A DNA stretch of 64,000 nucleotides, from the NCBI RefSeq assembly GCF_900095795.1, contig NZ_LT608328.1, forward strand, positions 1,171,001 through 1,235,000. Reading direction: 5' to 3'. Origin of the DNA: Petrimonas mucosa (GTDB taxonomy: Bacteria; Bacteroidota; Bacteroidia; Bacteroidales; Dysgonomonadaceae). Both the position numbers and the translations under genes were made by a program. Positions 5,672-28,877 of the stretch are shown in pieces. Position 1 is the stretch's first letter, and each line of letters begins with the position of its first letter. A model generated the notes under the pieces. It did no database searches. It worked only from the letters and a program-made list of their open reading frames with translations, and was not told where the DNA came from.

Positions 5672-7442
5672 ATTCCCGCTTTTTTCTAACCAGATTATTG
5701 TCAATCACACGTAATTTACTGATAAATAGTGAAAATATTTTGGAAAACCCTTGTTTTTCTCAAACAATATGGTTACATTTGTAACCATATTGAAGATTCA
5801 TTGTCATGGGAAAAAGGGTCATCGAGATCAAGGCGAAGAATGGAACGGTATATCTCTACGAGGATGAGTCATACTGGGACAGGGAAAAGGGTTACTCAAC
5901 GCACAAGCGCACCTGTATTGGCAAGAAGGGGGCAGATGGTGAGGCTATTTACAACACTTACTATAGGAACCGGGAAAAGATGCATCAACTAGCCGCAGAG
6001 GTAAAGAAGCCCAACGAGGTATCCAACACCACATTCGTTGGAGAGACGATGATACTTGACAAGGTGACCCGGGATACTGGTGTTTCACGCGTTTTGACCG
6101 AGAGCTTCGGGGAAAATGATGCCCGCAAGATCATCGCGTTGTCTTACTACCAGATATGTCGGGGGAAGGCATTGAGCAACGCGGAAGACTGGTTGGAGCA
6201 GCGCGGTTTGGGGAATATGGGGTTGAGTTCACAAAGGGTATCCGAATTGCTCGAGAGATTGAAGCAAGACAAGGTGAGCACGTTCTTTCAACTCTGGGCG
6301 GGGGAACACGCGGAAAAAGGGAGCCAGCTATTCGATTTGACCAGCGTGAGTACCTACGGCAAACGAAACCCTTACGCGGAGTACGGGTACAACAGGGATA
6401 GGGAAAACCTCGAGCAAATCAACCTGGCACTGCTGACCTCGTGTGGGAGCGGGCTGCCTATGTGGTACCAGGTGCTCCCCGGGAGCATGTCCGACAAGGT
6501 GATCCTGGATCAGGTGTTGTCGATGATGAAGAAGATGGAAGTCCCAAGGTTTACCTTCGTGGGTGATCGCGGTTTTTATAGTGACTACAACCTTGAGCTG
6601 TTGTCACGCGAGGGCTACAAGTTCACCATCCCGGTGCCGTCCAATGTCGCATGGCAAAAGAAATTGATCGCGGAACATCGCGACACACTTGTGCGCCCGG
6701 GGAACCTGATCGAGCAAAATGGGAGTATCATGTACGGGAAGACCATCTACAAGACTACCTCTGCTCATGGCAGAACCTGGTATCACCTGTATTTTGACCC
6801 CGCGAGAAAAGACAAGATCATAGCCTCTTTCATGCAAAAGCTAAGGGCTTTGAAAGATGAGCTGGAAGCAGACAAGCTTGTAGAATCACACCGGACGATG
6901 TATGAGCGTTACTTCATCGTCAAGGAGACCCCCGTTCGGGGCCGGTCGGTGAATTATAACGATGAGGCGATACAGGAGTTCATCAACAGTGACAGTTGTT
7001 ACTGGGTACTGATCTCTACCTCAGCCAAAACGGCGGTTCAGGCACTGGAACAATACCGGGAGAGAAACGGTGTGGAATTGTACTTCGATGATGAGAAGAA
7101 TCTCCTGGACTTGAGACGCCTGAAGAACCATAGCGAGCAGACGATCAAGGGTAAAATTTTCGTGACCTTCATCTCTCTGATCATCCTTGCAAGGTTACGA
7201 AAAATGGTGGGCCAGATTGACAAGAAGAAACGCAAACACTGGTCTGAACAAGATATGTTGCGCAAGGTGGAAACTTATGCAAGGGTTCACTTCGAGGGAA
7301 AATACAAGGATGTGTACTCCACACCCACCGCGGCTCAGCGACTAGTCTTCGACCTCCTGGAGATACCATACACCTTCAAGGGTAAGGAAAGAACATCGGG
7401 AAGAGAGCTGTAAATATGGTTACAAAAGCACGGGATTTTCGG
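5667..7442 (+). mobile_element. IS1634-family element nested in the IS30
   Basis: Ends read CTGAAATTCCCG (left) and, inward from the right, CCGAAAATCCCG. They are flanked by the direct repeat TCAAGAA (5660-5666 and 7443-7449), a 7-bp target duplication. Comparison with the uninterrupted IS30 copy fixes the insertion point. A perfect palindrome AATATGGTTAC-ATTT-GTAACCATATT (5766-5791) lies just before the transposase start, and the half-site ATATGGTTAC recurs right after its stop (7415-7424). Confidence 0.85.
5806..7413 (+). CDS. IS1634-family transposase
   Basis: A 535-residue intact DDE transposase. The catalytic motifs are LFDLTSVSTYG (first Asp), FVGDRGFYSDYNL (second Asp) and YRERNGVELYFDDEKNLLDL (Glu), in the spacing of the IS1634/IS1549 group. 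The C-terminal region (KNHSEQTIKGKIFVTFISLI) is the usual helical domain. No frameshift or stop is seen. The ATG at 5806 follows a palindrome that may act as an operator or a transcript hairpin. It looks competent, so the element could still move. Confidence 0.92.
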   Translation: MGKRVIEIKAKNGTVYLYEDESYWDREKGYSTHKRTCIGKKGADGEAIYNTYYRNREKMHQLAAEVKKPNEVSNTTFVGETMILDKVTRDTGVSRVLTESFGENDARKIIALSYYQICRGKALSNAEDWLEQRGLGNMGLSSQRVSELLERLKQDKVSTFFQLWAGEHAEKGSQLFDLTSVSTYGKRNPYAEYGYNRDRENLEQINLALLTSCGSGLPMWYQVLPGSMSDKVILDQVLSMMKKMEVPRFTFVGDRGFYSDYNLELLSREGYKFTIPVPSNVAWQKKLIAEHRDTLVRPGNLIEQNGSIMYGKTIYKTTSAHGRTWYHLYFDPARKDKIIASFMQKLRALKDELEADKLVESHRTMYERYFIVKETPVRGRSVNYNDEAIQEFINSDSCYWVLISTSAKTAVQALEQYRERNGVELYFDDEKNLLDLRRLKNHSEQTIKGKIFVTFISLIILARLRKMVGQIDKKKRKHWSEQDMLRKVETYARVHFEGKYKDVYSTPTAAQRLVFDLLEIPYTFKGKERTSGREL

Positions 7443-8685: not shown

Positions 8686-10923
8686 CTATTTCAGCCTGAT
8701 CAGCGACTGTTCAATCTCATTACGCAGCTCCTGTGGAGTCGCCCTGTTTCTGCCAACCTCCTTTAAAGCCTGTACGATTGCATCCCGCTCGATGCTCCAA
8801 CGGAACCAGCCCAACGCCTCGGCCAGGACAATCCTTACTTCAGTATCATCGTTCTGATCCTTCAGTACCGTCAGGAGAGCGGAAACCTGCTGGTGGTTGT
8901 TGTAGTTGCGCAACATCCGGATGGCTGAGATCCGATCTTTCGGCGCAGCCTCCTTGTCCTGTATCACAGTCAGAGAGCGGTCGTACCGTTTCGCCTGCCC
9001 CTCAAAATAGCTGGTCATCTTCCCTGCAACCTCATCGGGTTGTGTCAGGTTTGAGGCAACCGTCTGGCGGGCAATCTCCTCCCGGATCTTCTCCAGGTTG
9101 AACATCGGGAGTGATCCCTGTGCAGCATACTGAACCCGTTGACTTTCATCTGCGAAGAGCACTGTCTCCACCAAAGGGGCGATCAGTCGATCATCGCCGT
9201 GATAACCGGCAAAACGGGCACCGTTACGGCGGATCAGTTCATAGGGGTCATCCAATGCCAGCAACAACGCCTCGGTGAGATAGTTGCCGGAAGAGTAAAG
9301 AATCCGTTGCAATGCCTGCATCCGGACACTGTAGTAGGGGTTTTCTTTCAGATGGCGAAGCAGCAGTTCTGGATATCCTTTGGGTGAGCTGTAGGAGAGC
9401 ATCTTCAGGGCAATTGCCTGCAGGTTGGGGTTGTCACTCTGCAGGTACTCCTGCCATACCTTGCTCTTGTGGCGGTTCAAGGCCAGGTCGCGGTTCAGTT
9501 TCCGGCTCAAGGCCAACGGATCACCACCATCGGTGGCCGGGAGGAGCCGGTAGGTGGGATCGCCTATCAGGTGTGACTCGATCCACTGGAGCTCCCGCTG
9601 CCAGAATCCGATACGTGCTCCTTCGGCCAGCATGCCTATCAGCTCCATCGACCATTTGTCCTGAAGCACATTGACGGTGTTGCCTTGTGTCACCACCGTC
9701 TTGCCGTCGGTGAAGATATGATAGCCGGCCACATAACCCGGTTGGTGGAAGGAGCCGTTATAACAGGCATCGAAGATGGTGATGCGGGGTTGGGGCTGCA
9801 GTTTCCGGATATCGGCAAGCACAATGTTGATGTCGGCAGCCAGTAGCGAGTCGCCCACACGGGTACTGTCGAGCCGTTCGGACGAGAAGAAGTCGGGCAA
9901 CAGGGCATATTCGCTCAATACCCGCTTCGCAAATGTCTCTCTCCGTTCACCGCTGTAACGACGATAACTGTTCCGGAGCGAAGCCGAGAGAATTTCCAGG
10001 GGACCCGTTGTTCCCTCACGTCCCATGCCCAGCAGATTGGGAGCAGGATACGGGCCGTTGATATACTGGGTGTCGAAGGCGCCATGTTCGTGGAATACAA
10101 AGATGTCGGTCCCGGGCGACTGTAGTCGCTCAAAGAGCTTGTATTTCATGAAGGGGGCCTGCCTGAAGTTGTAGAAGGCGTTGCCCTCGGCCGTACGGAA
10201 TGCGCCGGGGAACAGCTCCTTGATTGCAAACTGCTGGTTGTGCCAGGTAGTGAGGCAGTCTGAGTTGTATCCGTGGCCGTTGAAAAACCGGACCCTGTCG
10301 GCATAATTGACCTCTCGGTGGGCCTCCACCACCTTGCGAAGATATCGCCTCAGCAGCTCGTAGACATCCTCTCCCATATCGACGGGTGGGAGCATGCGGG
10401 CGGAGTAGAATTCACTCTGTACTACCTGTGGTGAGCTTTCAGTCAACTCGTAATAGAAATGGCGGGGATTTTTCTCGTCAATGCTGAGAAAACGGAACTC
10501 CAGATCCAGATCATCGTAGAAACGATCGCTGGTTACCGACGACTCCTCAATGGGAAACTCCTTCTCGTTCATCTTGAAGGCGGTGGTGCCATGCTGAAAG
10601 TTACGCAGACGCACTACGGGGATGTCGCCAACAAAGACGGCCCCCTCCATCACCGGTTTCCGGCGGTAGATCTGCCTGATCTCCTCCCGCAACTTCAAGG
10701 GATTGTCCCAGTTGCCGATCATGATGACAACTCCCAGTCCCTCCTCCTCCAGAACAGCCTTGTAGGCCATCACCTCCTCGGTGGCCTCCTCAAAGCTCCT
10801 GGAGTCGATAACAACCAGAAAGCGGCTCTCGAACTTCCCGCTTTCGGGTATGATCCGGTCTGCCGCCATGGTAAGGAGGGTGGCAAGCAGGTAGAATATG
10901 GCTATGGTTTTGATCTTCTTCAT
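8686..10923 (-). CDS. exported caspase-like (C25-like) cysteine peptidase with HEAT repeats, paralogue 3
   Basis: A 745-residue protein with a Sec signal peptide (residues 1-21). The catalytic dyad of clan CD peptidases is visible: a hydrophobic strand then His-Gly (IFVFHEHGAFD, H280) and a second strand then Asp-Ala-Cys (ITIFDACYNG, C387). Upstream, EGAVFVGDIPV and TSDRFYDDLDL resemble the strand and SDxxYxDxD parts of gingipain-type (C25) domains; downstream, ESHLIGDPTYRL matches the GDPT motif of that family. The last 250 residues form HEAT-like helical repeats (DPYELIRRNGARFAG, EVRIVLAEALGWF). No T9SS C-terminal domain or lipobox is seen. It is the last gene of the operon, 11 bases after its neighbour, and the most diverged of the three paralogues. 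Confidence 0.8.
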   Translation of the reverse strand: MKKIKTIAIFYLLATLLTMAADRIIPESGKFESRFLVVIDSRSFEEATEEVMAYKAVLEEEGLGVVIMIGNWDNPLKLREEIRQIYRRKPVMEGAVFVGDIPVVRLRNFQHGTTAFKMNEKEFPIEESSVTSDRFYDDLDLEFRFLSIDEKNPRHFYYELTESSPQVVQSEFYSARMLPPVDMGEDVYELLRRYLRKVVEAHREVNYADRVRFFNGHGYNSDCLTTWHNQQFAIKELFPGAFRTAEGNAFYNFRQAPFMKYKLFERLQSPGTDIFVFHEHGAFDTQYINGPYPAPNLLGMGREGTTGPLEILSASLRNSYRRYSGERRETFAKRVLSEYALLPDFFSSERLDSTRVGDSLLAADINIVLADIRKLQPQPRITIFDACYNGSFHQPGYVAGYHIFTDGKTVVTQGNTVNVLQDKWSMELIGMLAEGARIGFWQRELQWIESHLIGDPTYRLLPATDGGDPLALSRKLNRDLALNRHKSKVWQEYLQSDNPNLQAIALKMLSYSSPKGYPELLLRHLKENPYYSVRMQALQRILYSSGNYLTEALLLALDDPYELIRRNGARFAGYHGDDRLIAPLVETVLFADESQRVQYAAQGSLPMFNLEKIREEIARQTVASNLTQPDEVAGKMTSYFEGQAKRYDRSLTVIQDKEAAPKDRISAIRMLRNYNNHQQVSALLTVLKDQNDDTEVRIVLAEALGWFRWSIERDAIVQALKEVGRNRATPQELRNEIEQSLIRLK

Positions 10924-10934
10924 ATAGATGTTCG

Positions 10935-13097
10935 CTATTGCATAAAATGTTCTAATCGCGCAATACTCTTGTTGATCTCATTGCTCAATTGTTGAGAGGC
11001 TTGCGGTTGTGCGGCCACCTCCCTGAGTGCGGCCACGATCTCCTCCCTGCGGTAGGAGTTGTTGAACCAGCCGAGTGCTTCGGCAAGCGCCACGCGCAAC
11101 GAAGCATCTTCACTCGTATCGGTCAGCACCTGGAGATAATCACCCACCTGCTTGTGGTAGTTGTTATTGCGCAGCATTCTTGCTGCAGATATTCTGCTCT
11201 TCAACGGCTTCTCCCTGTTGGTGACGTCGTTGGCCATCGCCGCTATCCGCTTGCGGGAGGCGAAGATGTGTTGGAACTCTTCCCATACCTTTTCTTTGTC
11301 TGGATAGGAGATGTTCTGATCAAGCTGTCGTTTCATCTCTGCTTCCATCGCATCGAAATCCATCCGGTCGAAGGTGAAGGTGACATTGAAATGGACCCGT
11401 TCATCAAGATAATTGTCGAGGTAGATTTTCACCAGATAGGGAATAAAGTGGTCGGAACCGATGGCGCCCATGGCATATACCGATTTGCGACGGATAAACT
11501 CGTAGGGGTCATTAATCGACTTCTCCAGCAGTTGTGCAAAATGGTCACCGCCGTAGAGCTGGAGCAGTAGAAAAGCCTGCAGCCGTACCGAGTAGTAGGG
11601 CGACTCGTTATAGGCTTTGGTAAGAAATTCAGCCATCCCGGGATACCCCAGGTCGGAAAGTTTATGCAGCGCCAGTCCCTTCAGATCGGGATGATCTGCT
11701 TTGTTGTATAATGCCAGCCAGTAGGCAGTGTCTGTAGTGCGAAGGTCTACCTGATCGGCAACATCGCCTGCAAAACGGAAGGTGGGGTCTCCAATGATGT
11801 GTGACTCCAGGATGTTGATCTCGCGGGCCCATTCACCTATCCGAAAACCAAGTCCCAGCAGACCCAACAGGTCGGTTGAACTCTTGTCCTGCAATACGTT
11901 GACACTGTTGGCGAAGGTGGCCAGCGTCTTGCCGTCGGCGAAGATGTACTCGCCGGCTATATAGCGCTCTTCACGGAAATCACCATTGTAGCAGGCGTCG
12001 AAGATCACCATCCGGGCATTGGGCGAGATGAGCGGCACATCGTCCAGGACGATGCCGGTCTGCAGATCGAGAAGCGAATCGGCTACCCGCTGTTTCGGAT
12101 CATCTGCCCCTGCAAACCAGAGAGTATCTATCCGGTAAAGCTCCATCCAGGTCTGTTTCAGTTTTTCCTGCTGCTGGACATCCCCGGCACGACGGAGAGC
12201 CTGCCGGAAGAGGCGTCGTCCCGCCTCCATCTGCTCCTCGCTCTCCTTGGTATGCGGCAGTGCTGTAAGGTATTGCCTGTCGGGCGTTCCATGCTCGTGG
12301 AAAAGCATCAGGTCCAAATCCATCCGTCGAAGTTGCTCGGTTACCAGCTCCTTCATATAGGGGTACATGTTGAAAAAGAGAAACTTTGCGGAACTTTTGT
12401 TGCGGAAGGCGGCCGGAATCTGCTCCCGCATCATCATCCCCTGGTTGCGCCATGCAGTAAGGCTGTTTGAGAAGGAACCCTCGCCAGTATAGGCGACAAC
12501 CACATCGAGCGGATTCTGCTGCTCCCGTTCGAGAAGTAGTTTCCGGAAATAGCTTCGTATCTGTTGATACCCCTCTTCTCCCTGTCGCGTCGGTTTCAGT
12601 CGCCCGCTGTAGATATCACTCTGGATATACTGGGGAGAGTCTCCCCGCAGTGAATAGTAGTGGAGCAGCGGCTCCTCCTCATCACTTCCGAGGTCGTCGA
12701 ACCGTAGGTCGAAATCGTCGTAAAAGCGGTCGGAAGGTACCGACGAGTCACGTTTGGGGAACCGCTCCTGATCCATCTTGAAGGCGGAAGTGAGATGCTG
12801 CGCATCGCGGATCATCGGTACCGGAATCTGTCCGATCAAGATCGCTCCTTCCAGCTGATGATGTAGATAGAGATGGTGCAGCTGTTGCCTCAGCTCATCG
12901 GGCTGTTTCCACTCCCCGGAAAGGAGTGATGGCGAAAAGCCTTCCCGTTCCAGGAGTGTGCTGTAGGCATCGATCTCCGCCTTGCAGGCGGTATAGGTGG
13001 ATTGATCCACCACGATGGCAAAACCTTTGCCTGCAGCTTCTACCCCGTAAGTGAGCAGCAAGGAAAAAGCTGTCAGAAATATCAATTTTCGAACCAT
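10935..13097 (-). CDS. exported caspase-like (C25-like) cysteine peptidase with HEAT repeats, paralogue 2
   Basis: I choose the ATG at 13097 (MVRKLIFLTAFSLLLTYGVEA) because it gives a clean signal peptide; a TTG 18 bases upstream is also open. The product is 720 residues. Dyad: LDLMLFHEHGTPD (H269) and ARMVIFDACYNGDF (C369). Flanking C25-like landmarks are EGAILIGQIPVPMIRDAQHL, PSDRFYDDFDL and ESHIIGDPTFRF. The HEAT-like C-terminus includes DPYEFIRRKSVYAMGAIG and SLRVALAEALGWF. It begins 14 bases after the DUF6850 stop, so the two are probably translationally linked. The substrate is unknown; cleavage after a specific residue cannot be predicted from the sequence. Confidence 0.8.
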   Translation of the reverse strand: MVRKLIFLTAFSLLLTYGVEAAGKGFAIVVDQSTYTACKAEIDAYSTLLEREGFSPSLLSGEWKQPDELRQQLHHLYLHHQLEGAILIGQIPVPMIRDAQHLTSAFKMDQERFPKRDSSVPSDRFYDDFDLRFDDLGSDEEEPLLHYYSLRGDSPQYIQSDIYSGRLKPTRQGEEGYQQIRSYFRKLLLEREQQNPLDVVVAYTGEGSFSNSLTAWRNQGMMMREQIPAAFRNKSSAKFLFFNMYPYMKELVTEQLRRMDLDLMLFHEHGTPDRQYLTALPHTKESEEQMEAGRRLFRQALRRAGDVQQQEKLKQTWMELYRIDTLWFAGADDPKQRVADSLLDLQTGIVLDDVPLISPNARMVIFDACYNGDFREERYIAGEYIFADGKTLATFANSVNVLQDKSSTDLLGLLGLGFRIGEWAREINILESHIIGDPTFRFAGDVADQVDLRTTDTAYWLALYNKADHPDLKGLALHKLSDLGYPGMAEFLTKAYNESPYYSVRLQAFLLLQLYGGDHFAQLLEKSINDPYEFIRRKSVYAMGAIGSDHFIPYLVKIYLDNYLDERVHFNVTFTFDRMDFDAMEAEMKRQLDQNISYPDKEKVWEEFQHIFASRKRIAAMANDVTNREKPLKSRISAARMLRNNNYHKQVGDYLQVLTDTSEDASLRVALAEALGWFNNSYRREEIVAALREVAAQPQASQQLSNEINKSIARLEHFMQ

Positions 13098-13111
13098 ATT
13101 CAATTTAATTA

Positions 13112-14671
13112 TCAAAAGGTGAGCCCAATACCTAAGCGGGCAATCAGCCTTGTATCATCACTTTCGGTCGGTTTATAATAATCGGCAGTCACTTTCACGT
13201 AGGCACCGCCGCCCCTTTGGGCTAAAAGGCCGGTAAAATAGCTGATGGAGGCTCCCACCTTATAGTAGTCCTGTTTCAAATAGTCTGCCTCGGGATTCAT
13301 GAAATCGGTAATGACGATCGATCCGGGGTCGACACCACCATAGTGATACTCCCCTTTCCGGTTCATTTTCCGGACGAGGTCGGCACCCAGCACCCAACGG
13401 GAGTTTCCACCTGTGGAAAGATTGAATTTAGCATCTGCTCCCAGGTAGAGATCACTGATCTTCAGGTATGAGGCTGGCATGATATAGTTGTCGTCCGTTA
13501 CGGTGTAGAGTGCATATATACCTGCTTTCCAGCTGTACTCCCGAACCGCGTTGCGGAAGAGGTCGTACGACAGGCGGTAGCTGTCGCGCCGATAGGTAGA
13601 GCGGATGCTGCTGTAGAGATCCACCCACTGTTGTACTTCATAACTGTTGTCCAGCACCTGTACAAACTCGATGCCATCTGTCCGGCTACTGCGGTAGATG
13701 AAGTCTACCCTGTTCAGGTTGACCCCCTCGTGCAGCAGTGCTGCATGTCCATAGAGCACCTGCTGACGTATGGTACCCTCCTTGCGGGGTTTGGTGATAT
13801 CCCTCACCGCCTCTTCCACACGGTAGCCGTAGCCACCCTCGGCAAAAAGGCGAAAAGCTTGCTGTTGCCAACCGTACTGCAGGCCGAAACCCACCTTGTT
13901 GGCATCGTAGATAAAGCTACCCAGCGATTGCAGACCGCCGATCACGGCAGTATAGTGATTCCCCAATCCCCGCATCACGAACACATTCTGGTTTACTTGG
14001 GTGTCACTGTTGCTATGTGCCCGGGTCTCCTGGATCATGTTCTCGTACTCCAGATTTATACCCACACGATGGGATCCGAAGATGCCAGCGATACCCGGCT
14101 TCACGTTAATGGAATAGAGGTAGAGCTCCGAACGGGGATCCATCTGCTTGGCTCCCGTCTCCGCTTTATATGCAGCCTGTATACCCAGCAGATAGTGATT
14201 GGCCAGTGGGCGGGATGATACCTTCATCTGCAGGTTGTAATGCTGCTTTTTCCATTCACTCGGGTTGGGATCTACCGGATAGTAAGGTACTCCCCGGTAA
14301 GGATCGAGCATCGCCGTATTGAAACGGGTATCCTTCTCGGTTTCGTTAGCATAGGCAAACCGGCCCCAGGCATAGATGCCACCGATCTGTTGACCACCCT
14401 CGGTGACCACATCGAGTTGTCGCTCCTTTTCTCCCTGTTGCACCCTCTTGAAGGTTCCGTCGGTTGTCTGGTAACCAGCCTCCAGGAGGCCGTATTTACC
14501 GAGGCTGTCGAGGCCGATACCGGCACCGTTGTCGCTCTCCAACCATGTGGAGCGAGCCTTGCTCAGTTCTATGGTGAGTGGTGATACTTGGGCCTTGATG
14601 CAGGGGGCCAACTGAAGGGCTACAGCCGCCAGCAACAGCCCTTTGATGTATTGTATGTTATTTCTCTTCAT
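13112..14671 (-). CDS. DUF6850 family outer-membrane beta-barrel protein
   Basis: A 519-residue protein with a signal peptide (residues 1-27, ending IKAQ). It is rich in alternating hydrophobic/polar strands (for example HYTAVIGGLQSLGSF, RLFAEGGYGYRV) and ends with Phe (RLIARLGIGLTF), the usual terminal strand of an outer-membrane barrel. I recognise it as DUF6850-like from its overall character and its position beside a DUF4876 gene and a TonB-dependent receptor. Its role is not known; a channel or a partner of the receptor is a reasonable inference. It lies between the DUF4876 gene (17-base gap) and peptidase 2. Confidence 0.75.
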   Translation of the reverse strand: MKRNNIQYIKGLLLAAVALQLAPCIKAQVSPLTIELSKARSTWLESDNGAGIGLDSLGKYGLLEAGYQTTDGTFKRVQQGEKERQLDVVTEGGQQIGGIYAWGRFAYANETEKDTRFNTAMLDPYRGVPYYPVDPNPSEWKKQHYNLQMKVSSRPLANHYLLGIQAAYKAETGAKQMDPRSELYLYSINVKPGIAGIFGSHRVGINLEYENMIQETRAHSNSDTQVNQNVFVMRGLGNHYTAVIGGLQSLGSFIYDANKVGFGLQYGWQQQAFRLFAEGGYGYRVEEAVRDITKPRKEGTIRQQVLYGHAALLHEGVNLNRVDFIYRSSRTDGIEFVQVLDNSYEVQQWVDLYSSIRSTYRRDSYRLSYDLFRNAVREYSWKAGIYALYTVTDDNYIMPASYLKISDLYLGADAKFNLSTGGNSRWVLGADLVRKMNRKGEYHYGGVDPGSIVITDFMNPEADYLKQDYYKVGASISYFTGLLAQRGGGAYVKVTADYYKPTESDDTRLIARLGIGLTF

Positions 14672-14688
14672 AATCGTTCCTCTTTTTG

Positions 14689-15906
14689 CTATTTCCAGGT
14701 GTTCCAGGCGGGGGCTTTAGCGTCGTAGCGCCTGATCATTGGCGGATCCATCACCTCAAAGTCGTCGGTGCTGTTGTTGGTATCCTGCAGGATCACACGT
14801 CCGTCGGGATGTGTCTCCTTCACTTTTCTGGCCACGCTTACTCCAAGGTAGGTGCCGTTGACGGTAGCTGCACCGGCATCCAGGATGGCGGGCATCCGTT
14901 TCAGTTCCATCTGGTTGGGGTTGCCTACATTCTCCAGTGCGTCCACCACCGATTCGATCGGTACTCTGTAGGTCTTTGTCGTGGTTCCTACCGGGCTCAC
15001 CACTTCGGTTGGACTGTTGGGATCGATCGGTTCGGAGGGCACGAAGAGTATGAATGCTCCTCCGAAGACGGTGGTCAGCCACTGTGCGACGGGCGAGGGC
15101 CAGAAGGCCATCTTCATGTTGATGGCCGGGTTATCCTGGATCAGCGAGGTGGTCTGTACCAGTGTCTCAAATTCGGCACTCAGCAGGTTGACGGGTGCGG
15201 AGGGGTTGAGGTTCTCCTTCCTGTGGTCATCAGCCATCTGGGCGATAATGATCGATTCGCCCGGCTGAAGTGGAAAATCGGCCGTGTCTGGTACCTGCCA
15301 GATCTGCAGGGCATAGACGTACTTGTCGGCATCGGGACCATCATATACAGGCATATTTGCAGTGGCGGTTAGGGGATTGATGATGGCAATGGCCAGGCCG
15401 CGGACATTCTGCTCGAGATCGCTGTTGTTGTAGATCTCATAAAACTGGTCGCGGAAATAGGAGCCGCCGCTGGGGGTTCTCGATCCGCAGTAGTAGACCT
15501 CCTTGAAAAGGAGTGCGCCGGACTTGGCTGCCCCCACCTCCACAGTGATGGTTTCCATATCCTTTGTTATCCCCACGTTCACCACATTTCCGTTGTAATT
15601 GTACGAAAATCCATCTTCGCTTTTCGCGGCACTCACCGTTACGGTGTAGATGCCAGGGATGATATTCTCTACAGTGACCGGCTGATTGGGTGTCATGGTG
15701 GTGGAGAGCTCATATCGTTCGGCAAAATTGACCAGCTTTACCTGTAACTGGTCGGGTATCGGCGCATCGCCCACGTTGAGATTCACCTCAATGGTGGCGC
15801 GCAACGGAACCATCTTCTCCGCATCGGAGACACTCTGAAACTGCTCGCAAGAGAGTAGCAGTGTCAGCAGTAGGAAGAGACTGTATCTGTTGATTTTCTT
15901 CTTCAT
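14689..15906 (-). CDS. DUF4876 domain lipoprotein
   Basis: A 405-residue protein with a lipoprotein signal (LFLLLTLLLSCEQFQS, Cys near residue 20). An N-terminal beta-sandwich-like segment (ATIEVNLNVGDAPIPDQLQV to GIYTVTVSAAKSEDG, about 35-95) resembles the domain often preceding DUF4876. The rest (ALLFKEVYYCGSRTPSGGSY, YEIYNNSDLEQNVRGLAIAI) is the DUF4876 core, similar in style to lamin-tail-like surface domains. It is probably anchored at the outer membrane, either side. It sits between the TonB-dependent receptor and the DUF6850 barrel, an arrangement I associate with Bacteroidales uptake loci; the ligand is unknown. Confidence 0.8.
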   Translation of the reverse strand: MKKKINRYSLFLLLTLLLSCEQFQSVSDAEKMVPLRATIEVNLNVGDAPIPDQLQVKLVNFAERYELSTTMTPNQPVTVENIIPGIYTVTVSAAKSEDGFSYNYNGNVVNVGITKDMETITVEVGAAKSGALLFKEVYYCGSRTPSGGSYFRDQFYEIYNNSDLEQNVRGLAIAIINPLTATANMPVYDGPDADKYVYALQIWQVPDTADFPLQPGESIIIAQMADDHRKENLNPSAPVNLLSAEFETLVQTTSLIQDNPAINMKMAFWPSPVAQWLTTVFGGAFILFVPSEPIDPNSPTEVVSPVGTTTKTYRVPIESVVDALENVGNPNQMELKRMPAILDAGAATVNGTYLGVSVARKVKETHPDGRVILQDTNNSTDDFEVMDPPMIRRYDAKAPAWNTWK

Positions 15907-15972
15907 ATGATTTTCGGATTTTAATCTTTTCTATCTATGGTTGTAAATCGCGCTGGGAAATTCCACTCCTCC

Positions 15973-18861
15973 CTACAACTGGAGTGCCAGTTCAAAGCCG
16001 AAGTAGAGGGGAATATTTAACCGTGTGAATGAGCCAGGTGTACGTTTACTCTCATAGAGCGGTCTGTTGTTGAACATGTTGTTGGCGTAGAAACTGGCCT
16101 TCAGGTTGCGGCCAATCTCCTTGGTCAGATGGAAGTTGATCAGCAGCACGGGGAAATAGGACTCCGTGATAAAACGGGTGGGACTCCTTACTTGTTTGAG
16201 ATAGGCAAATTCGGGATCATTATACATCGATTCATTGAAAGGCTTTACTGAGCCATCTACACGCGAGATATAGGATACCAGAATGGAGTCGTTTCCGTAG
16301 GTGGTCCAGTACTTGTTCAGCCAGCTCACCTGTGCAGTGGTGGTCACCACAAACCCAATTGAGGGGATGTTGTGGGTGGCCCTGAGGGTGGTGGTGAAGC
16401 GCTCCCGCTCATATTTCTCTGCCCCCTTCTCGTAGATGCCGACGTTCCGTTCCAGGTTGTTCAGGTTCTTCTGGTTGCTGAAGGAGTGGCCGTCGTTCCA
16501 ATCGGTCGACCGCATATAGGCTCCGTTCAGTACGAAGGAGGTCCGGATGGCGTTGATCCTGCCGAAGTCGAAATCGAATTCCACGCCCCGGTTATGCGAC
16601 CGTCCGTCGTTGGTGGGTGTGGCAAAGGAGACAAAAATATTGTGACGCTCCTTCTCCTTCAGGGTGGGGATGGTGCCAGGGTTGGCCTCCGCCTGTTCGT
16701 AGATGATATATTCGAGCAGCCTGTAGGAGTCGATGGTGGTAGCCAAATTATATCCATTTTTCAACTGCTCGTCGTATGCGGTGACCGAGAATCGCATCTT
16801 TTTCACCATCAGGTCGAGTCCGATCTCCGCTTTCCGGTTTGCCGCGATTTTCAGATCGCGGTTCTCGGTGTTGAAAACCCGGGTAGTGGCCAGGAAAAGT
16901 TGTTCATCCTGGGGTACGGATGAGGAGTTGAGCGTATTGAAGTGTACCAGGTCGAAGTAGGCATTTTCAGGATAGAGGTAGAGGGCCGTCGGGGCCTTGG
17001 CGGTAATGCCGTATCCTCCTCTCAGCCACAGCTTCTGCGGCAAGATGTCGAATGAGAGGTTGGAGCGGGGTGTGACGATGCTCTTTCCGTTGACCAGGTC
17101 GTAGCGGGCACCCGCCTGAACCATCAGCTCATGTTTACCCATGATCCAGTTGAGATTCTCTTCGGCATAGAGCGACAACTGGTTGATAAAAGGTATCTCG
17201 GAATATTTTCTGGGACGGGGTGAAGAGTTCTCAGAACTGAGCACTCTATATGGCGGATTGTTGGGGTCATATACCTTGCCATCGCCCAGGTTGCCGTCGC
17301 TCTTGAAGTTGGCTCCGACCAGGATCCGGTTATTGATATTGCCCACGCTCTTGGTTAAAGTGGCATTCAGGTTGGCGAAGATATTTACCTCCTTGCCGTA
17401 GATGTCGTATTGGCTGTAGTATTCGTTGGGGAGGTAGGTGGCAATAAGATCTTTTTCCGAAGGAGGAATATTGGTCAGTTCATTTCCTTGGTCGTCAAAT
17501 ACTTGCTGTCCAGGTCGGTTGCTTAGGACCGCCTTGTCGGTTTTCGACATCGAATAGGCAGCGAATGCATTGCCCAGCAACTCTTTCTGGTAGGAGTGCT
17601 TGTCGCGGTAGCTGCCCGAGAGGGTATACTTCACGTTGTTCAGCCATCCCTTTCGGATGTTGAGGGTTCCGTTGGTGTTGAGGCGCAGGCCAAGGTCGCG
17701 AGCTCCGGTCTCCAGTTGGCTGCGGGCATCGTCGGGATTCTTCTCGCGGGTATCCTTGCCGAGTGAGAGATCGAGCGAGGTGGTGCTGAAAAGCTTGTTG
17801 AACTGGTTGGAATAGATGCTCCGGGCTGTTGCACGCTGATAATAGGCATATGACTCCTTGGCATCCTTTATGCTGTAGGCATAATCACCGCTTATATTCA
17901 GGTTTCCTCTCTCTTTGCCCAGATTCACTCCCTTGCTGACGGAGGCCTGGTAGATGTAGGGATCTGTCTTCAGGCGTACAGTAAGTGGCTCACGTCCGGC
18001 TTTCGATCTGATAATCACAGCGCCGGAGGTGAGATCGCCATGCTCCACCGAAGGGATACCTCTGATTACTTCTACCGACTCGATATTGTCGGTGGAGATA
18101 CTGCGGATATCCAGCCCGGAGTTGGGTGACGAGCCACCGCCAATAGCAGCACCACTGCCGCTGATGGCGGGCGAGAGGGTTTGCAGGTTGGCGTTGTTGG
18201 ATAGGGGAGCTCCATCGATCACGATAGCGGTACCCATACTGTTCATGTTGGCTGCATCGGTGGGTATCGGTACGCCCTGGTTAACCGGATTGGCTCCCAG
18301 ACTACGAATATTGAAGGTCTTGGCCGTAGCCAGTCCGCTCTGGTAGGAGGTGACTCCGCCCGGAAGCAGTTGCATGATATCGCTCAATGAACTGGTTTGC
18401 AGGTGGTCCATCGCCTGTCGTGAGATGGTGGAGGCTGTGGCTCTACCCGCTTTGCTCTCCTTGGCCACCACCGTGATTTCGGTGAGACGGAAGGTACTCT
18501 CCTGCATCTGGAGTGAAAGAGACAGGTTTTGCCCGGCAGCCAGCGTGAAGGTGGTATCGATCGGTTCCATTCCCAGGAAATCGATCCTTATGTTTATCCG
18601 CCCGGGCGATAACTTGTCGAAAAAGAATTCTCCCCTGCTATTGGTCGCGGTGGCAGCCCCTTGCGGCAGCACTTGCACCGTGGCAAACTCAACTGGTACG
18701 GAGGGATTGTTCAACTCCGTTACCCGGCCTCTCAAGGAAGCGGTTGTCTCCTGAGCCATCAACTGCGTTGTAGTAACCATCCACAACCCCAATATGGCTA
18801 TCCCGAAAAGAAGAGGTCTCCTCCTCGAAGTGATGAATTTGAGATGCTGATCACTGTTCAT
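15973..18861 (-). CDS. TonB-dependent receptor of the peptidase operon
   Basis: A 962-residue outer-membrane receptor. A signal peptide precedes residue 36. A carboxypeptidase-regulatory-like domain follows (TASLRGRVTELNNPSVPVEF to LSLSLQMQ, about 39-130), then the plug (LTEITVVAKES, LSDIMQLLPGG, GSSPNSGLDIRSISTDNIES, VEVIRGIPSVEHGDLTSGAV) and a 22-strand-type barrel ending FGFELALQL. The second gene of the operon, it lies 51 bases after peptidase 1 and 66 before the DUF4876 gene. It lacks a SusD partner, so it is closer to metal, haem, cofactor or peptide receptors than to SusC. Substrate unknown. Confidence 0.92.
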   Translation of the reverse strand: MNSDQHLKFITSRRRPLLFGIAILGLWMVTTTQLMAQETTASLRGRVTELNNPSVPVEFATVQVLPQGAATATNSRGEFFFDKLSPGRINIRIDFLGMEPIDTTFTLAAGQNLSLSLQMQESTFRLTEITVVAKESKAGRATASTISRQAMDHLQTSSLSDIMQLLPGGVTSYQSGLATAKTFNIRSLGANPVNQGVPIPTDAANMNSMGTAIVIDGAPLSNNANLQTLSPAISGSGAAIGGGSSPNSGLDIRSISTDNIESVEVIRGIPSVEHGDLTSGAVIIRSKAGREPLTVRLKTDPYIYQASVSKGVNLGKERGNLNISGDYAYSIKDAKESYAYYQRATARSIYSNQFNKLFSTTSLDLSLGKDTREKNPDDARSQLETGARDLGLRLNTNGTLNIRKGWLNNVKYTLSGSYRDKHSYQKELLGNAFAAYSMSKTDKAVLSNRPGQQVFDDQGNELTNIPPSEKDLIATYLPNEYYSQYDIYGKEVNIFANLNATLTKSVGNINNRILVGANFKSDGNLGDGKVYDPNNPPYRVLSSENSSPRPRKYSEIPFINQLSLYAEENLNWIMGKHELMVQAGARYDLVNGKSIVTPRSNLSFDILPQKLWLRGGYGITAKAPTALYLYPENAYFDLVHFNTLNSSSVPQDEQLFLATTRVFNTENRDLKIAANRKAEIGLDLMVKKMRFSVTAYDEQLKNGYNLATTIDSYRLLEYIIYEQAEANPGTIPTLKEKERHNIFVSFATPTNDGRSHNRGVEFDFDFGRINAIRTSFVLNGAYMRSTDWNDGHSFSNQKNLNNLERNVGIYEKGAEKYERERFTTTLRATHNIPSIGFVVTTTAQVSWLNKYWTTYGNDSILVSYISRVDGSVKPFNESMYNDPEFAYLKQVRSPTRFITESYFPVLLINFHLTKEIGRNLKASFYANNMFNNRPLYESKRTPGSFTRLNIPLYFGFELALQL

Positions 18862-18912
18862 ACGTTATCTTCTTAATTTCTTAATAATGTGATTACAAAA
18901 AATGGAGAAATA

Positions 18913-21066
18913 TCAATCGGTAAGTCGGCGGAGGGTGCGTTGCAGCTCCCGTTTCACCAGATCATCCTTTTCCACTTCGATCTGTGACTTGCAGAAGTCT
19001 ATGATCTCCTGTTTTCTCCAGGATTGGGTGTACCAGCCCAAAGCTTCGGCCAACAGCTGTCTCAGGGTCTGATCGTGAGACTCCCTCATGAAACGGAAAA
19101 GGGTGTCGAGGTAGGCAGCCTGTTGGGAGTTGCGAAGTGCGGTGATGGTGAAACGATTGTTGCGCGTTTCTGTTGCCGGATCGAGCAGCCCTTTCATGTC
19201 GCTCTCCTTGGAGATGAGGATCCGTTCAAAATTGCCTCTTTCGGCTCTCCGCTCATCGTACCAGATTCCCTGCTTTCCCTCCAGTGCTTTGTCGTAAGCG
19301 GCTAGAGCCGCCTCCTTCTCATAAAGTTCAACTGCACCCTTCACCTGGTAACTGACCCGCTGTGAGGTTCCCGGCGCTATCCACATGCCGATTAACTCAT
19401 CCAGAAGTTGGGGAGATTGGTTCTCGGAAGCGTCGATGGCAGCGAAGCGATTCAGCAGTTCGTAATCGTCGCGGAGCCCCGCAAGGATGGAGGATATGGC
19501 CAGATTATCTTCACTTTTTTTAATGAGGCGGTAGGCCATCAGCCTTGCTGTAGGCGAGGAGTCGCTTCTTTGGATCGAGAAGAGCTGCTCGGGAGATATG
19601 GCTCCTTTGGCAGCCAACCGCTTCATGGCCAAAGCTCTCACCTCCGGATGCTTATCCTTCAGCAGTTTTTTCCAGTAACCGGTATCATCCTTTTTGTGTG
19701 CCATCGCAAAGTTGAGTTTGTCGCCTCCCTCTCTGCTGGCAGCATACATATAGGTAGGGTCGCCAATCAGGTGCGATTCCAGGGTGAACTGCTCTTTTGC
19801 CCAGTTACCCACACTTACCCCCAACTCCAGCAATCCGATCAACTGGTTGCTCCAGATGTCCTGAAGCGTATTCACCGAGTTGGCCTTGACCACAACCGTA
19901 TGCCCGGGGTTGAAGATGTAGTGCCCACTGATGTAATCCTCCAGGTGGAAGGAGCCGTTGAAGCAGGCGTCGAGCATGATGAAGCGGGCTGCCGGGGTGA
20001 AATTTTTCAGGTCATCAATATGGATATCCATAGCGGCGTCCGCAAGACTGTCCTTCAGCATGACTGCCGGATCGAACGCATTGTTGACCCAGGATTCCGG
20101 CACGTTGTACTTCTCGATGTAATACTGTTTGGAAGCGGTGGTATCTTTTGCGTTACGGATCTTGCCCCGGAAGAACTTGCGGGCCATTTCCAGCCATTTG
20201 TCCGCCATGATGGAATAGGGACTGGCATTGAGATATTGCGTGTCTTCCGCACCGTGGTGATGCAGGATGGCCAGATCGAGATCCTCCCTCTCCAGTTCGG
20301 CCATGAGTCGACCCTTTATAAATTCATCGTAAGTATGGTCGATGTAGTTGAGCTTACCCTTCCCGTTCGTCAAGACGGAAAATTGATTCGTAAGCGAGAA
20401 TCGCTCATCGATACGTGCTGCCAGACTATTGGAGTGGTATCCATTTCCGGCAAAATAGGTGATCTGGGAGATTCGACGCGCTGAAGCTTTCTCCCTGACG
20501 GCTTTCTCAAGAAAAGTGCTGATCAGGTCGAACCGGCTTTTACCTTCATATTTGGGAGGTTTTATTCTTGCGGTATAAATTTCACTTTTTACCGTCTGGG
20601 CTCCCTTGGGCGAGAGACTATAGTAATGGAGGAGCGGTTGCAATGAGTCCTGTTTGAGATATTCGAACTGCAGGTCGAAATCGTCGTAGAACCGGTCTGA
20701 AGGTATGGAGGATTGATCCCAGGGACGTCGCTGATCCATCTTGAAGGCGGTGGTCAGATGTTGTGCGTCACGTATCATCGGTACAGGAATGTCGCCAATG
20801 AATACGGCCCCTTCCAGGTGATTGTTGAGATATAGTTGTTGCAGTTGAACCCGAATGGAGTCGGGAACATGCCATTTGTCCACAATGATCAGAGTCTCCA
20901 GTCCATCGGCTCGAATCGATCTGGCATATGCATCGATAGATGCTCCACAGTTTTCGCTGACAGCAGGGTCGACCACAATGGCGAATAGTCTCTGATGACT
21001 TTGTGGTGAAACATGAGACGAAGCCATCAATAGTGATAGGGCTAAAACAATCTTACAAATTTTCAT
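18913..21066 (-). CDS. exported caspase-like (C25-like) cysteine peptidase with HEAT repeats, paralogue 1
   Basis: A 717-residue protein, first gene of the operon. The signal peptide spans residues 1-22 (IVLALSLLMASSHVSPQ). The dyad is LDLAILHHHGAED (H271) and ARFIMLDACFNGSF (C368). C25-like landmarks: EGAVFIGDIPVPMIRDAQHL, PSDRFYDDFDL, IYTARIKP and ESHLIGDPTYMY. The C-terminal third is helical and HEAT-like (HPEVRALAMKRLAAKG, DYELLNRFAAIDAS, LRQLLAEALGWY). The His-Cys distance of about 97 residues is long for clan CD because of an alpha-helical insert. It shares nearly identical blocks with paralogue 2, indicating duplication within the locus. Confidence 0.8.
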   Translation of the reverse strand: MKICKIVLALSLLMASSHVSPQSHQRLFAIVVDPAVSENCGASIDAYARSIRADGLETLIIVDKWHVPDSIRVQLQQLYLNNHLEGAVFIGDIPVPMIRDAQHLTTAFKMDQRRPWDQSSIPSDRFYDDFDLQFEYLKQDSLQPLLHYYSLSPKGAQTVKSEIYTARIKPPKYEGKSRFDLISTFLEKAVREKASARRISQITYFAGNGYHSNSLAARIDERFSLTNQFSVLTNGKGKLNYIDHTYDEFIKGRLMAELEREDLDLAILHHHGAEDTQYLNASPYSIMADKWLEMARKFFRGKIRNAKDTTASKQYYIEKYNVPESWVNNAFDPAVMLKDSLADAAMDIHIDDLKNFTPAARFIMLDACFNGSFHLEDYISGHYIFNPGHTVVVKANSVNTLQDIWSNQLIGLLELGVSVGNWAKEQFTLESHLIGDPTYMYAASREGGDKLNFAMAHKKDDTGYWKKLLKDKHPEVRALAMKRLAAKGAISPEQLFSIQRSDSSPTARLMAYRLIKKSEDNLAISSILAGLRDDYELLNRFAAIDASENQSPQLLDELIGMWIAPGTSQRVSYQVKGAVELYEKEAALAAYDKALEGKQGIWYDERRAERGNFERILISKESDMKGLLDPATETRNNRFTITALRNSQQAAYLDTLFRFMRESHDQTLRQLLAEALGWYTQSWRKQEIIDFCKSQIEVEKDDLVKRELQRTLRRLTD

Positions 21067-21105: not shown

Positions 21106-21113
21106 CAAATATA
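21106..21113 (-). promoter_or_regulatory. candidate -7 box (TATATTTG) for the peptidase-receptor operon
   Basis: TATATTTG on the minus strand, 40 bases before the ATG of peptidase 1, fits TAnnTTTG. The -33 region is AT-rich with no exact TTTG at 19-21 bases. It is the only good candidate upstream of the six-gene run. Confidence 0.45.
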
Positions 21114-21252: not shown

Positions 21253-21266
21253 CCAGAATAGTGTTG

Positions 21267-21338
21267 TAGCGCACAGCGGAATCGAACCGCTATTCATTGC
21301 CTGAGAAACAATTTTCCTAACCGTTAGAAGAGTGCGCC
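21267..21338 (-). tRNA. tRNA-Glu (anticodon CTC)
   Basis: The minus strand folds into a full cloverleaf of 72 bases. The acceptor stem GGCGCAC/GTGCGCT has one G-T pair, the D arm is TTCT-loop-GGAA with GG in the loop, and the anticodon stem is ATTGT/GCAAT with loop TTCTCAG (CTC at 34-36). The T arm AGCGG-TTCGATT-CCGCT is perfect and the discriminator is A. CCA is not encoded. A TAAATTTG box (21356-21363) lies upstream and a terminator follows. A CUC-reading tRNA-Glu is an additional isoacceptor next to the usual UUC one. Confidence 0.88.
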
Positions 21339-26786: not shown

Positions 26787-28877
26787 CCCACATTGCAGCT
26801 AACCGGAGCTAATTCCCTGTATCCCTGCGTATATATTTTTTTCAAGGTTCAATTGGGGGACTACAGATTTTTTCCTGATAAATGGTTTTTCATCGTATCC
26901 CAACACCTTATATATGATTCTTACTTTGGATTCAGGGAGTGAACATTTTCTAATCGACACACACTCTTCATCGGTATTTACCATGTGCGTTGTCACCATT
27001 TTCTGCGTGTTCATGATCCGGACAATCTCTCTCCACTCATGGGTAATCCCAAATTGTTTCAGTTTGAAACGGATCGTGCTTACCAGCTGGTAGGCCAACA
27101 GCCCGAGGTGAAGATGAGCCATTGTCGCCTCATCCGTTTTATGAAACACGGGACGCAGGTTCAGATCAGTCTTCAGGCAACGAAACGTCGACTCTACTTC
27201 TCTTATAGTGTTGTAAATCAGCCAGGTGATCTCCTCTCCATGTACCGACAGGGAAGTACGCAAGAAGTATTCCCCATGTCTTGATTCGCTCTTTGCCTCG
27301 ATTCTCTCCCAGGATATGGATGTGGCATGAATCCCCCTTTCGTCGGGCTCCACATGGATCTGATACAGGCGGTGTACCGAAGGGTATTTTTCCTTTAGCC
27401 GGCCGATGCGTTCCCACACCTTTTCAAGCTTTTTGGTGCCTCCTTTCTTTTTCAGGGCTTCGGCTGCCTGGCTCAGTCCACATTCAAAGGCCCGCGTGAA
27501 ACGGTTTTCCATGGACGCTTCCTTGAGACCCTTGCTATAGCTCTTCACCTTGTAGAAGCTGTCACTTTCGCCATCCACTTCTACCTGACTGATCTCGATG
27601 AGCTGGTTGGATTTATCCCGTATTTCCACAGGGGAAAGGCTTGTTGCACGGTATTCTTTGAGTTTACCCCGTGAGACACAGATGTAGTCGAAGGATTCCT
27701 CTTTCAATATCTTCAGGTTATCATTCGTGGCGATGCCGGCATCCATGACCACCACCTGCTTTTTATCGGATCTCCCCCTATGGGATTTCATCTTGTCAAG
27801 AATATATTGCAGGCTTTCAGGATCAGTCATGTTGCCTTCAAAGATTTGTGACTCCTTCAGGAAACCTTCCGGGTTGACCACCACAGCCAGCACCACCTGT
27901 CTGGCATCGTTACGCTTTTCCTTGCTGCGCCCGAACTTCGCTATCCGGCTCTCTCGCATAGCTCCCTCGAAGTAGGTATTTGTCAAATCATAGATAATGA
28001 TCTTGTCATCCAAGGAAAAAAGATCGTTCGTACGGTTGGAAAAATGACGTTCCAGGCCATCCTTCTCATCATAAAGCCGGTGAGCCATCTGGTAAAGCTT
28101 ATCCTTGGTGATGGCCGAAGGATCAACACCGGTTAGTTCACAAAGCGCCGAGTTCTCCTTCAACCAACGGCTGGTTTTAAACTCCGATGCGGGGTAAACA
28201 GCCCGGGCGATGATCTGTGTTAAAGCAAGGGCGATATCTTGTTTCTCCCAGCCGAAAGTCTCAAAATACTCTGGCAGGAGCAATTGGCGGCAAGCTTGAA
28301 GGCAGAGCCATTCGCCACCAACCTCCCGAATATCGCTGTTCGTTGTCCTGTCAATGTACACCTGCTCGATACCGGCTGCCTTCTTTTTTGCCTTTTCTAT
28401 CTTTTGCGCTTCATGGAGTAGTCCCACGTATTTCGTGCACAGGGCTTCCACCTTGTCATCACGAAGCGATGAGATGATGAATGTTTTGCCCTCGAAGTAA
28501 ACCTGGTTGATGCGTTGACAGAGAAAGGGAATCTTTTCAGGTGGAAGAACTGATTCCAGGTCACCCAAAGAGAGCAGCGTGCGATTACGGATGAAGCGGC
28601 CTTCCCGGTAGCTCTCACACAACCGGTAATGGGTATACTCATGGCCCCCATCCTTTTGCTTTATGCTTGTCTTGAAAAACATACAACGCAAAAGTAATCA
28701 AGGGATACGTTTTTTTCAACATCAAATGGGGGACTACATTCGTGTTTTAAAATAAACCGACATTGAATATCAGCCTGATACAAAAATTCATGGTCATCAA
28801 ACAGACGTAAAACAAGCGGATTTAACGTAAATAGAGGGTAAGTTTAACTTCTATTTATAATCGTGCTGCAATGTGGG
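26787..28877 (-). mobile_element. IS1634-family element inserted in the GH92 gene
   Basis: Inverted ends CCCACATTGCAGC (26787-26799) and GCTGCAATGTGGG (28865-28877), flanked by TTAA on both sides (26783-26786 and 28878-28881) as a 4-bp target duplication. Length 2091 bp with a single transposase gene. Removing it restores the GH92 frame. Confidence 0.9.
26799..28682 (-). CDS. IS1634-family transposase
   Basis: From the ATG at 28682 (MFFKTSIKQKDGGHEYTHYR; a TTG nine bases upstream is also open) the product is 627 residues. DDE residues: IIYDLTNTYFEGAM (first Asp), VVMDAGIATNDN (second Asp) and IYNTIREVESTFRCLKTDLN (Glu). The ADGHI-type C-terminal part is LHLGLLAYQLV. No stop or shift seen; it appears intact. 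It is only distantly similar to the other IS1634-family transposase at 5806-7413. Confidence 0.92.
   Translation of the reverse strand: MFFKTSIKQKDGGHEYTHYRLCESYREGRFIRNRTLLSLGDLESVLPPEKIPFLCQRINQVYFEGKTFIISSLRDDKVEALCTKYVGLLHEAQKIEKAKKKAAGIEQVYIDRTTNSDIREVGGEWLCLQACRQLLLPEYFETFGWEKQDIALALTQIIARAVYPASEFKTSRWLKENSALCELTGVDPSAITKDKLYQMAHRLYDEKDGLERHFSNRTNDLFSLDDKIIIYDLTNTYFEGAMRESRIAKFGRSKEKRNDARQVVLAVVVNPEGFLKESQIFEGNMTDPESLQYILDKMKSHRGRSDKKQVVVMDAGIATNDNLKILKEESFDYICVSRGKLKEYRATSLSPVEIRDKSNQLIEISQVEVDGESDSFYKVKSYSKGLKEASMENRFTRAFECGLSQAAEALKKKGGTKKLEKVWERIGRLKEKYPSVHRLYQIHVEPDERGIHATSISWERIEAKSESRHGEYFLRTSLSVHGEEITWLIYNTIREVESTFRCLKTDLNLRPVFHKTDEATMAHLHLGLLAYQLVSTIRFKLKQFGITHEWREIVRIMNTQKMVTTHMVNTDEECVSIRKCSLPESKVRIIYKVLGYDEKPFIRKKSVVPQLNLEKNIYAGIQGISSG

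Follow-up and report, generated by a model that had tools for sequence, protein, structure and literature searches.

A conserved gene cluster of Bacteroidota, which usually has one to three exported peptidases beside an iron-type importer of the outer membrane, suggests that its hosts take up an iron-bearing protein or peptide and digest it to obtain its iron. The central trait of this cluster, an exported protease encoded together with a TonB-dependent receptor, is conserved across species. We describe it in Petrimonas mucosa, in a stretch of 64,000 nucleotides, called here the window. Besides the receptor, it codes for three paralogous peptidases (P1, P2 and P3), a DUF4876 lipoprotein and a DUF6850 protein. 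We propose that they form a protease-associated import system, whose soluble peptidases would cut a protein or peptide carrying iron or haem in the periplasm, a proposal that we find about equally easy to believe and to doubt. For this system we infer the ligand, the peptidase activity and the location alike.

The cluster and its partner proteins

The six open reading frames at 8686-21066, all on the minus strand, follow one another head to tail and code for 717, 962, 405, 519, 726 and 745 amino acids (Table 1). The 726-codon frame of P2 opens at a TTG, and an ATG inside it, at 13097, gives 720 residues and a 14-base gap. With this start, the intergenic gaps are 51, 66, 17, 14 and 11 bases. 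The initial annotation had reported a six-gene cluster with gaps of 11-66 bases and paralogues of 717, 720 and 745 residues; coordinates, gaps and lengths are confirmed, with P2 read from its internal ATG. The genome is a single contig of 3.72 Mb, and a genome search located three peptidase genes, one DUF4876 gene and one DUF6850 gene in it, all within the cluster. Judged by P1, the nearest named relatives belong to Proteiniphilum (82% identity in locus L001).

Table 1. Features of the cluster and its surroundings, in positions of the window
Feature	Position	Strand
P1, exported peptidase, predicted clan-CD fold, C-terminal HEAT repeats, 717 aa; His271, Cys368	18913..21066	-
TonB-dependent receptor, 962 aa, CarboxypepD_reg and Plug domains	15973..18861	-
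DUF4876 lipoprotein, 405 aa, lipobox LLSC	14689..15906	-
DUF6850, predicted outer-membrane beta barrel, about 18 strands, 519 aa	13112..14671	-
P2, second peptidase, 720 aa from ATG at 13097 (726 from TTG at 13115)	10935..13097	-
P3, third peptidase, 745 aa	8686..10923	-
Candidate promoter TATATTTG, about 40 bases before the P1 start, fits TAnnTTTG	21106..21113	-
tRNA-Glu (CTC), directly upstream of the operon	21266-21338	
Transposase gene, IS1634 family	5806-7413	
Transposase gene, DDE_Tnp_1	26802-28691	
Transposase gene, DDE_Tnp_1	38175-39422	

The candidate promoter fits TAnnTTTG, the Bacteroidetes -7 consensus; promoter and terminator scans stayed at chance level (14 against 11.0 and 11 against 12.6, respectively). 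Besides the tRNA gene, a divergent gene of the endonuclease/exonuclease/phosphatase family lies upstream of the operon. Three transposase genes are present around the cluster. A role of the cluster in defence was set aside because PHROGs gave no match for it and PADLOC a single one, to the HEAT part of P3 only.

The three partner proteins were recognized by Pfam (DUF6850, E = 9e-101; DUF4876, 7.6e-41; TonB plug, 9.5e-11). The receptor matches the TonB-siderophor model TIGR01783 weakly and below its cut-off (5e-11), and no solved relative of it was found at E<=0.001. A homologue of the DUF4876 protein has been solved (PDB ID: 4q1z, "Putative lipoprotein"), and the lipoprotein is probably located at the outer membrane. 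The model of DUF6850 (pLDDT 90.2) predicts an outer-membrane barrel with about 18 strands. The protein has no close solved barrel among the 50 Foldseek matches listed, which reach TM scores of about 0.2-0.4 (TonB receptors, AlgE, FadL and others). Past its short N-terminal helices, DUF6850 has a conserved N-x-A-G stretch reminiscent of the hatch motif of FadL.

Predicted fold and family of the peptidases

P1, P2 and P3 share 31-37% pairwise identity. The HEAT-like C-terminus ascribed to them by the initial annotation is recognized by Pfam as HEAT_2 in all three. These HEAT repeats are the only Pfam matches above cut-off, so that no peptidase family is assigned, and NCBIfam gave nothing above cut-off for the peptidases. 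Searched by sequence with the peptidase profile, the solved structures gave 29 matches; the significant ones all fall on the HEAT arm and none is notable on the catalytic domain. Foldseek comparison of the whole P1 model with the PDB is likewise dominated by helical-repeat and HEAT proteins, with a SAVED-CHAT filament in tenth place (E 4.5e-3).

The fold of the catalytic part was read from an AlphaFold2 model of P1 (mean pLDDT 93.3, pTM 0.90), for which 68 of 80 aligned sequences were used, the 80 having been kept from 135. The order of elements in clan CD is given in PMC4626109 as b1-a1-b2-a2-b3-a3-b4-b5-a4-a5-b6, with the catalytic His just past b3 and the Cys just past b4. Residues 201-435 of the P1 model match this order: strand 201-206, helix 215-228, strand 238-243, helix 251-258, strand 265-269 (followed by H271), helix 288-304, strand 362-365 (followed by C368), strand 392-396, helices 410-415 and 419-424, and strand 431-435. 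Additional short helices and strands lie chiefly within the b3-b4 insert. The catalytic part is preceded by an alpha/beta part (26-168) and followed by the HEAT arm (about 448-716). A caspase-like sheet had been named beforehand as a check on the initial annotation, and the six-strand order of the model is caspase-like. On the strength of this strand order and of the His/Cys dyad, P1-P3 are predicted to have a clan-CD-type fold.

In P1, the His-Gly motif is H271/G272 and the cysteine is C368. All 139 full-length homologues, with all three paralogue lineages among them, keep this His, Gly and Cys without exception; this set comprises 139 of 146 matches, the seven outside 600-850 amino acids having been left out. 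The positional conservation of His and Cys, on which the catalytic reading of the initial annotation depended, is thus complete in this set. Folds of clan CD have lost their activity elsewhere, and P1-P3 might by the same token be non-catalytic scaffolds with a caspase-like fold; set against the invariance of the dyad in every lineage, we consider this very improbable.

The initial annotation had also ascribed C25-like landmarks to the peptidases, a reading that fares less well. Membership in family C25 is not supported, as PF01364 matches neither P1-P3 (E<=1) nor any other protein of the genome. Profile comparison with 18 C25 proteins gave an hhalign probability of 3.9% and left the catalytic residues unpaired; these proteins come from 18 of 30 loci, and the remaining 12 were dropped because the reading frame and strand chosen contained stops. 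The local hhalign score of 28.0 exceeds all 50 column shuffles (best 25.1), yet the catalytic residues are out of register, and the alignment matches the SDRFYD stretch of the peptidases to an SDDYF stretch of C25. In the global comparison, 3 of 30 shuffles scored equally high. What speaks for a link is a remote 720-residue protein with a T9SS tail (L177:3990-6149, genome G064), which matches both profiles weakly: that of the peptidases at residues 28-98, in the N-terminal part (20.7 bits), and PF01364 just under its cut-off of 23 (7.4e-5, 22.6 bits). A clear His-Gly/Cys dyad was not seen in this protein, and a DUF4876 search of its genome gave no match.

C25 enzymes (gingipains, PorU) carry Ig and T9SS tail domains. 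The peptidases described here resemble them in the predicted clan CD fold, in an SDxxY-type motif within the N-terminal part and in a GDPT-type motif past the last strand, and differ from them in carrying a HEAT arm in place of Ig and tail domains. Judged by sequence, they would form a new family, perhaps in distant kinship to C25.

Distribution of the peptidases and of DUF4876 loci

A scan of GTDB species genomes for relatives of P1 yielded 249 stretches, of which the best 80 gave 79 loci. The receptor is present in 74 of these 79 seeded loci. In four others (L006, L057, L060 and L071), the fetched stretch breaks off close to the peptidase at one end or both, and L071 still has DUF4876. Locus L058 is a true exception, with five genes for peptidases but neither receptor nor DUF4876 nor DUF6850 within 20 kb; its close relative L040 carries the full gene set. 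The commonest orders are P-receptor-DUF4876-DUF6850-P-P (20 loci) and P-receptor-DUF4876-DUF6850 (18 loci), some of them cut by record ends. The hosts of the 79 loci are mainly Bacteroidales, together with Chitinophaga and one genome of Ignavibacteria.

Two further samples of 198 genomes each were searched, one of the order, sampled evenly, and one of the phylum. In the order sample, the peptidase was found in 8 genomes and DUF4876 in 35 (E<=1e-20); in all 8 peptidase genomes the two genes share a contig, at a distance of about 1.6-5 kb. One of the genomes, G324, has a second peptidase at the edge of a contig that gave no DUF4876 match. In the phylum sample, full-length peptidases occur in three genomes, each time with DUF4876. 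DUF6850 is close to DUF4876 in 36 of 42 order loci and in 62 of 64 seeded loci. The expectation of the initial annotation that homologues adjoin the receptor, DUF4876 and DUF6850 is therefore borne out. Neither sample contains a genome with a full-length peptidase that lacks the DUF4876 system, and the system is often present where no peptidase is found; as these searches scored just the top candidates of each genome (5 for the peptidase, 9 for DUF4876), absences in them are not proof.

In a tree of the 139 peptidases, made by a quick method and with long branches flagged, three clades correspond to the paralogues. The P1 clade has 57 rows (49 upstream of the receptor, 8 unplaced), the P2 clade 26 (24 first downstream, 2 unplaced) and the P3 clade 29 (24 second downstream, 4 upstream, 1 unplaced). 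The other 27 rows, nearly all downstream copies, fall outside these clades. P1, P2 and P3 are thus old lineages that have largely kept their positions. That three peptidase genes have long been kept apart argues for different tasks, probably different substrates or sequential cuts.

DUF4876 loci without the peptidase often contain another set of genes. In the order sample, one or more genes for DUF4857, for the permease-like protein of about 222 residues that partners it, for PepSY or for a 4Fe-4S protein are found in 26 of 34 loci without the peptidase and in none of the 8 loci with it (Fisher p = 1.1e-4; the count takes the first DUF4876 gene of each locus and 8 kb around it, and, the rows being related, p-values are indicative). 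These counts cover 42 of 43 order loci (L134 was lost in gene calling) and 16 of 17 phylum loci (L101 fell below the score cut). When the three sets are pooled and at least 6 kb is required on both sides, the module genes occur in 2 of 20 peptidase loci against 26 of 38 others (p = 2.2e-5). With 9 kb searched, and fewer order loci, they occur in 25 of 32 without and 0 of 3 with the peptidase. Of the 63 seeded loci with the peptidase, many of which are short stretches, one has a module gene within 8 kb. The phylum sample by itself gives no significant exclusion (1/3 against 2/13, p = 0.49). There are exceptions to the exclusion: in L054 and L099 the peptidase and ABC/DUF4857 genes stand together within 8 kb, and at 9 kb a 4Fe-4S gene also appears in the peptidase loci L022 and L100. 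Both kinds of locus are found, at separate places, in the genomes G293, G342 and G343. The DUF4876 gene of the window has no PepSY relative within 9 kb.

Nine loci (L135, L136, L147, L148, L150, L154, L156, L158 and L161) are of the type of BT3625-33 of Bacteroides thetaiotaomicron and combine the DUF4876 receptor with an ABC ATPase, the permease-like protein of about 222 residues, DUF4857, a PepSY-like protein and a lipoprotein of about 195 residues. The 16 phylum loci show further neighbours. An M16 peptidase lies near three of them (Pfam-checked for L096 only). In two, a di-haem cytochrome c peroxidase gene (CCP_MauG; L091:13486-14613 and L094:11800-12945) occupies the slot of the peptidase, downstream of receptor, DUF4876 and DUF6850. 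YCF48-like propeller proteins stand beside eight (L092, L093, L095-L100), and both of those examined (L092, L096) have a T9SS tail. In five (L085-L089), a lipoprotein-like protein of about 300 residues accompanies the receptor-DUF4876-DUF6850 set; in L086-L089 it has no Pfam match at E<=0.1.

These loci bear on another role for the peptidases, namely maturation or regulation of the system through cuts in the plug of the receptor, in the lipoprotein or in a regulator, with the ligand left undigested. The close linkage of peptidase and receptor genes, HEAT arms suited to a fixed binding partner and the long separation of three paralogues would all agree with such a role. The receptor-DUF4876-DUF6850 set, however, lacks a nearby peptidase in 34 of 42 order loci, so that the core needs no such cutting to exist, and we regard this role as distinctly unlikely.

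Iron and the proposed import and cleavage

The initial annotation knew of no described system with this composition. This has to be narrowed, as a DUF4876-receptor pair is in print and responds to iron; the part that stands is that no peptidase is named in the available text. In the open-access literature, with subscription papers outside its scope and as far as the available texts extend, we found no description of this peptidase or of this gene combination. The iron data come from species other than Petrimonas mucosa. On iron depletion, PG1019-22 (DUF4876, receptor and hypotheticals) rises 20.8-214.5 fold, and BT3625-33 (DUF4857, ABC, PepSY and DUF4876 proteins with a receptor) 38.1-128.1 fold by the table and 36.7-128 fold by the text (PMC10434189). 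The rise is modest, 3.5-7.4 fold, for BT1933-39 of B. thetaiotaomicron, which consists of an IS256 transposase, hypotheticals, a HEAT-repeat protein, DUF4876 and a receptor (PMC10434189). Hemin availability alters a DUF4876 gene (PMC10470040), and PG_1019 and PG_1020 are among the altered genes of strain FLL361 (PMC10101095). All three iron-responsive loci share DUF4876 and a TonB receptor with our cluster. Judged by annotation, the HEAT-repeat protein of BT1933-39 is probably of the same type as P1-P3, and the locus likely includes an orthologue of them. Unlike our cluster, none of the three has a peptidase named in the available text of PMC10434189, and BT3625-33 has DUF4857, ABC and PepSY proteins instead.

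In Fus and YddB-PqqL, a TonB-dependent receptor is paired with a periplasmic M16 protease (PMC6793856, PMC6071955); the neighbouring receptor and protease genes are common to our cluster, and expression of PqqL is reported to depend on iron. The enzyme here is, by contrast, a predicted clan-CD cysteine peptidase with HEAT repeats and not an M16 metalloprotease, present in up to three or more paralogues and accompanied by DUF4876 and DUF6850. Related clusters in Proteobacteria are treated in PMC6793856, where, in the available text, Bacteroides appears only in the legend of a SusC figure and Bacteroidetes is absent. Xus, an iron-regulated xenosiderophore system of Bacteroides, combines a receptor and a surface lipoprotein with an enzyme of its own for processing, a PepSY reductase by which iron is freed (PMC13142918). 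Our cluster has the same three kinds of component, with DUF4876 and peptidases where Xus has a DUF4374 lipoprotein and the reductase (in P. distasonis also an esterase).

By analogy, the DUF4876 lipoprotein and the receptor would bind a protein or peptide that carries iron or haem, and this cargo, whole or as a fragment, would pass through the receptor into the periplasm. Soluble peptidases would cut the cargo there and free the iron or cofactor, the step done by the PepSY reductase in Xus and by the M16 protease in Fus. The cargo, we infer, is iron- or haem-bearing and has a peptide part. The peptidases may dock via their HEAT arms, and DUF6850 may be an additional outer-membrane channel of the complex. 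A bolder version, which we hold to be doubtful, is that three non-interchangeable caspase-fold peptidases bind the iron- or haem-protein while it enters through the receptor, draw it inwards by cutting it step by step and set the cofactor free; this would be a second, independently evolved solution to import and digestion beside that of the M16 enzymes.

The place of cleavage separates our proposal from its main rival, in which the peptidases act at the cell surface or in the medium and the receptor imports the freed cofactor or peptide. The initial annotation had allowed for cutting outside or in the periplasm, and the evidence leans to the latter. Signal peptides, which it had also claimed, are plausible, with a hydrophobic N-terminus in 143 of 145 peptidases by simple in-house rules. 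By the same rules, a lipobox-like motif is seldom found in the peptidases (11 of 145, against 49 of 65 DUF4876 proteins), and Pfam found no T9SS tail in P1-P3. No PorU-type C25 protein was found in the genome, whereas 45 of 60 phylum genomes gave a match. We place the cutting, at about even odds, in the periplasm because of these traits of soluble, exported enzymes and the missing C25/PorU protein. The genome has possibly lost type IX secretion, and three Por_Secre_tail matches remain in it; since two of them are over the cut-off, such secretion may still operate. These matches favour the surface, as do the T9SS tails of YCF48-like proteins beside some phylum loci and of the remote relative L177, the probable outer-membrane location of the DUF4876 lipoprotein, and the usually adjacent DUF6850 barrel, which could be an export route. 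On balance, surface cleavage seems to us rather unlikely.

Periplasmic cleavage of an imported cargo, if true, would extend protease-associated import from the M16 enzymes of Proteobacteria to enzymes of clan-CD fold in Bacteroidota, and would give a function to DUF4876 and DUF6850. The peptidases would define a family whose catalytic domain has no Pfam or NCBIfam model reaching cut-off. With the peptidase set and the DUF4857/ABC/PepSY/4Fe-4S set alternating beside one receptor core, we predict that the same kind of receptor is served by two ways of stripping its cargo.
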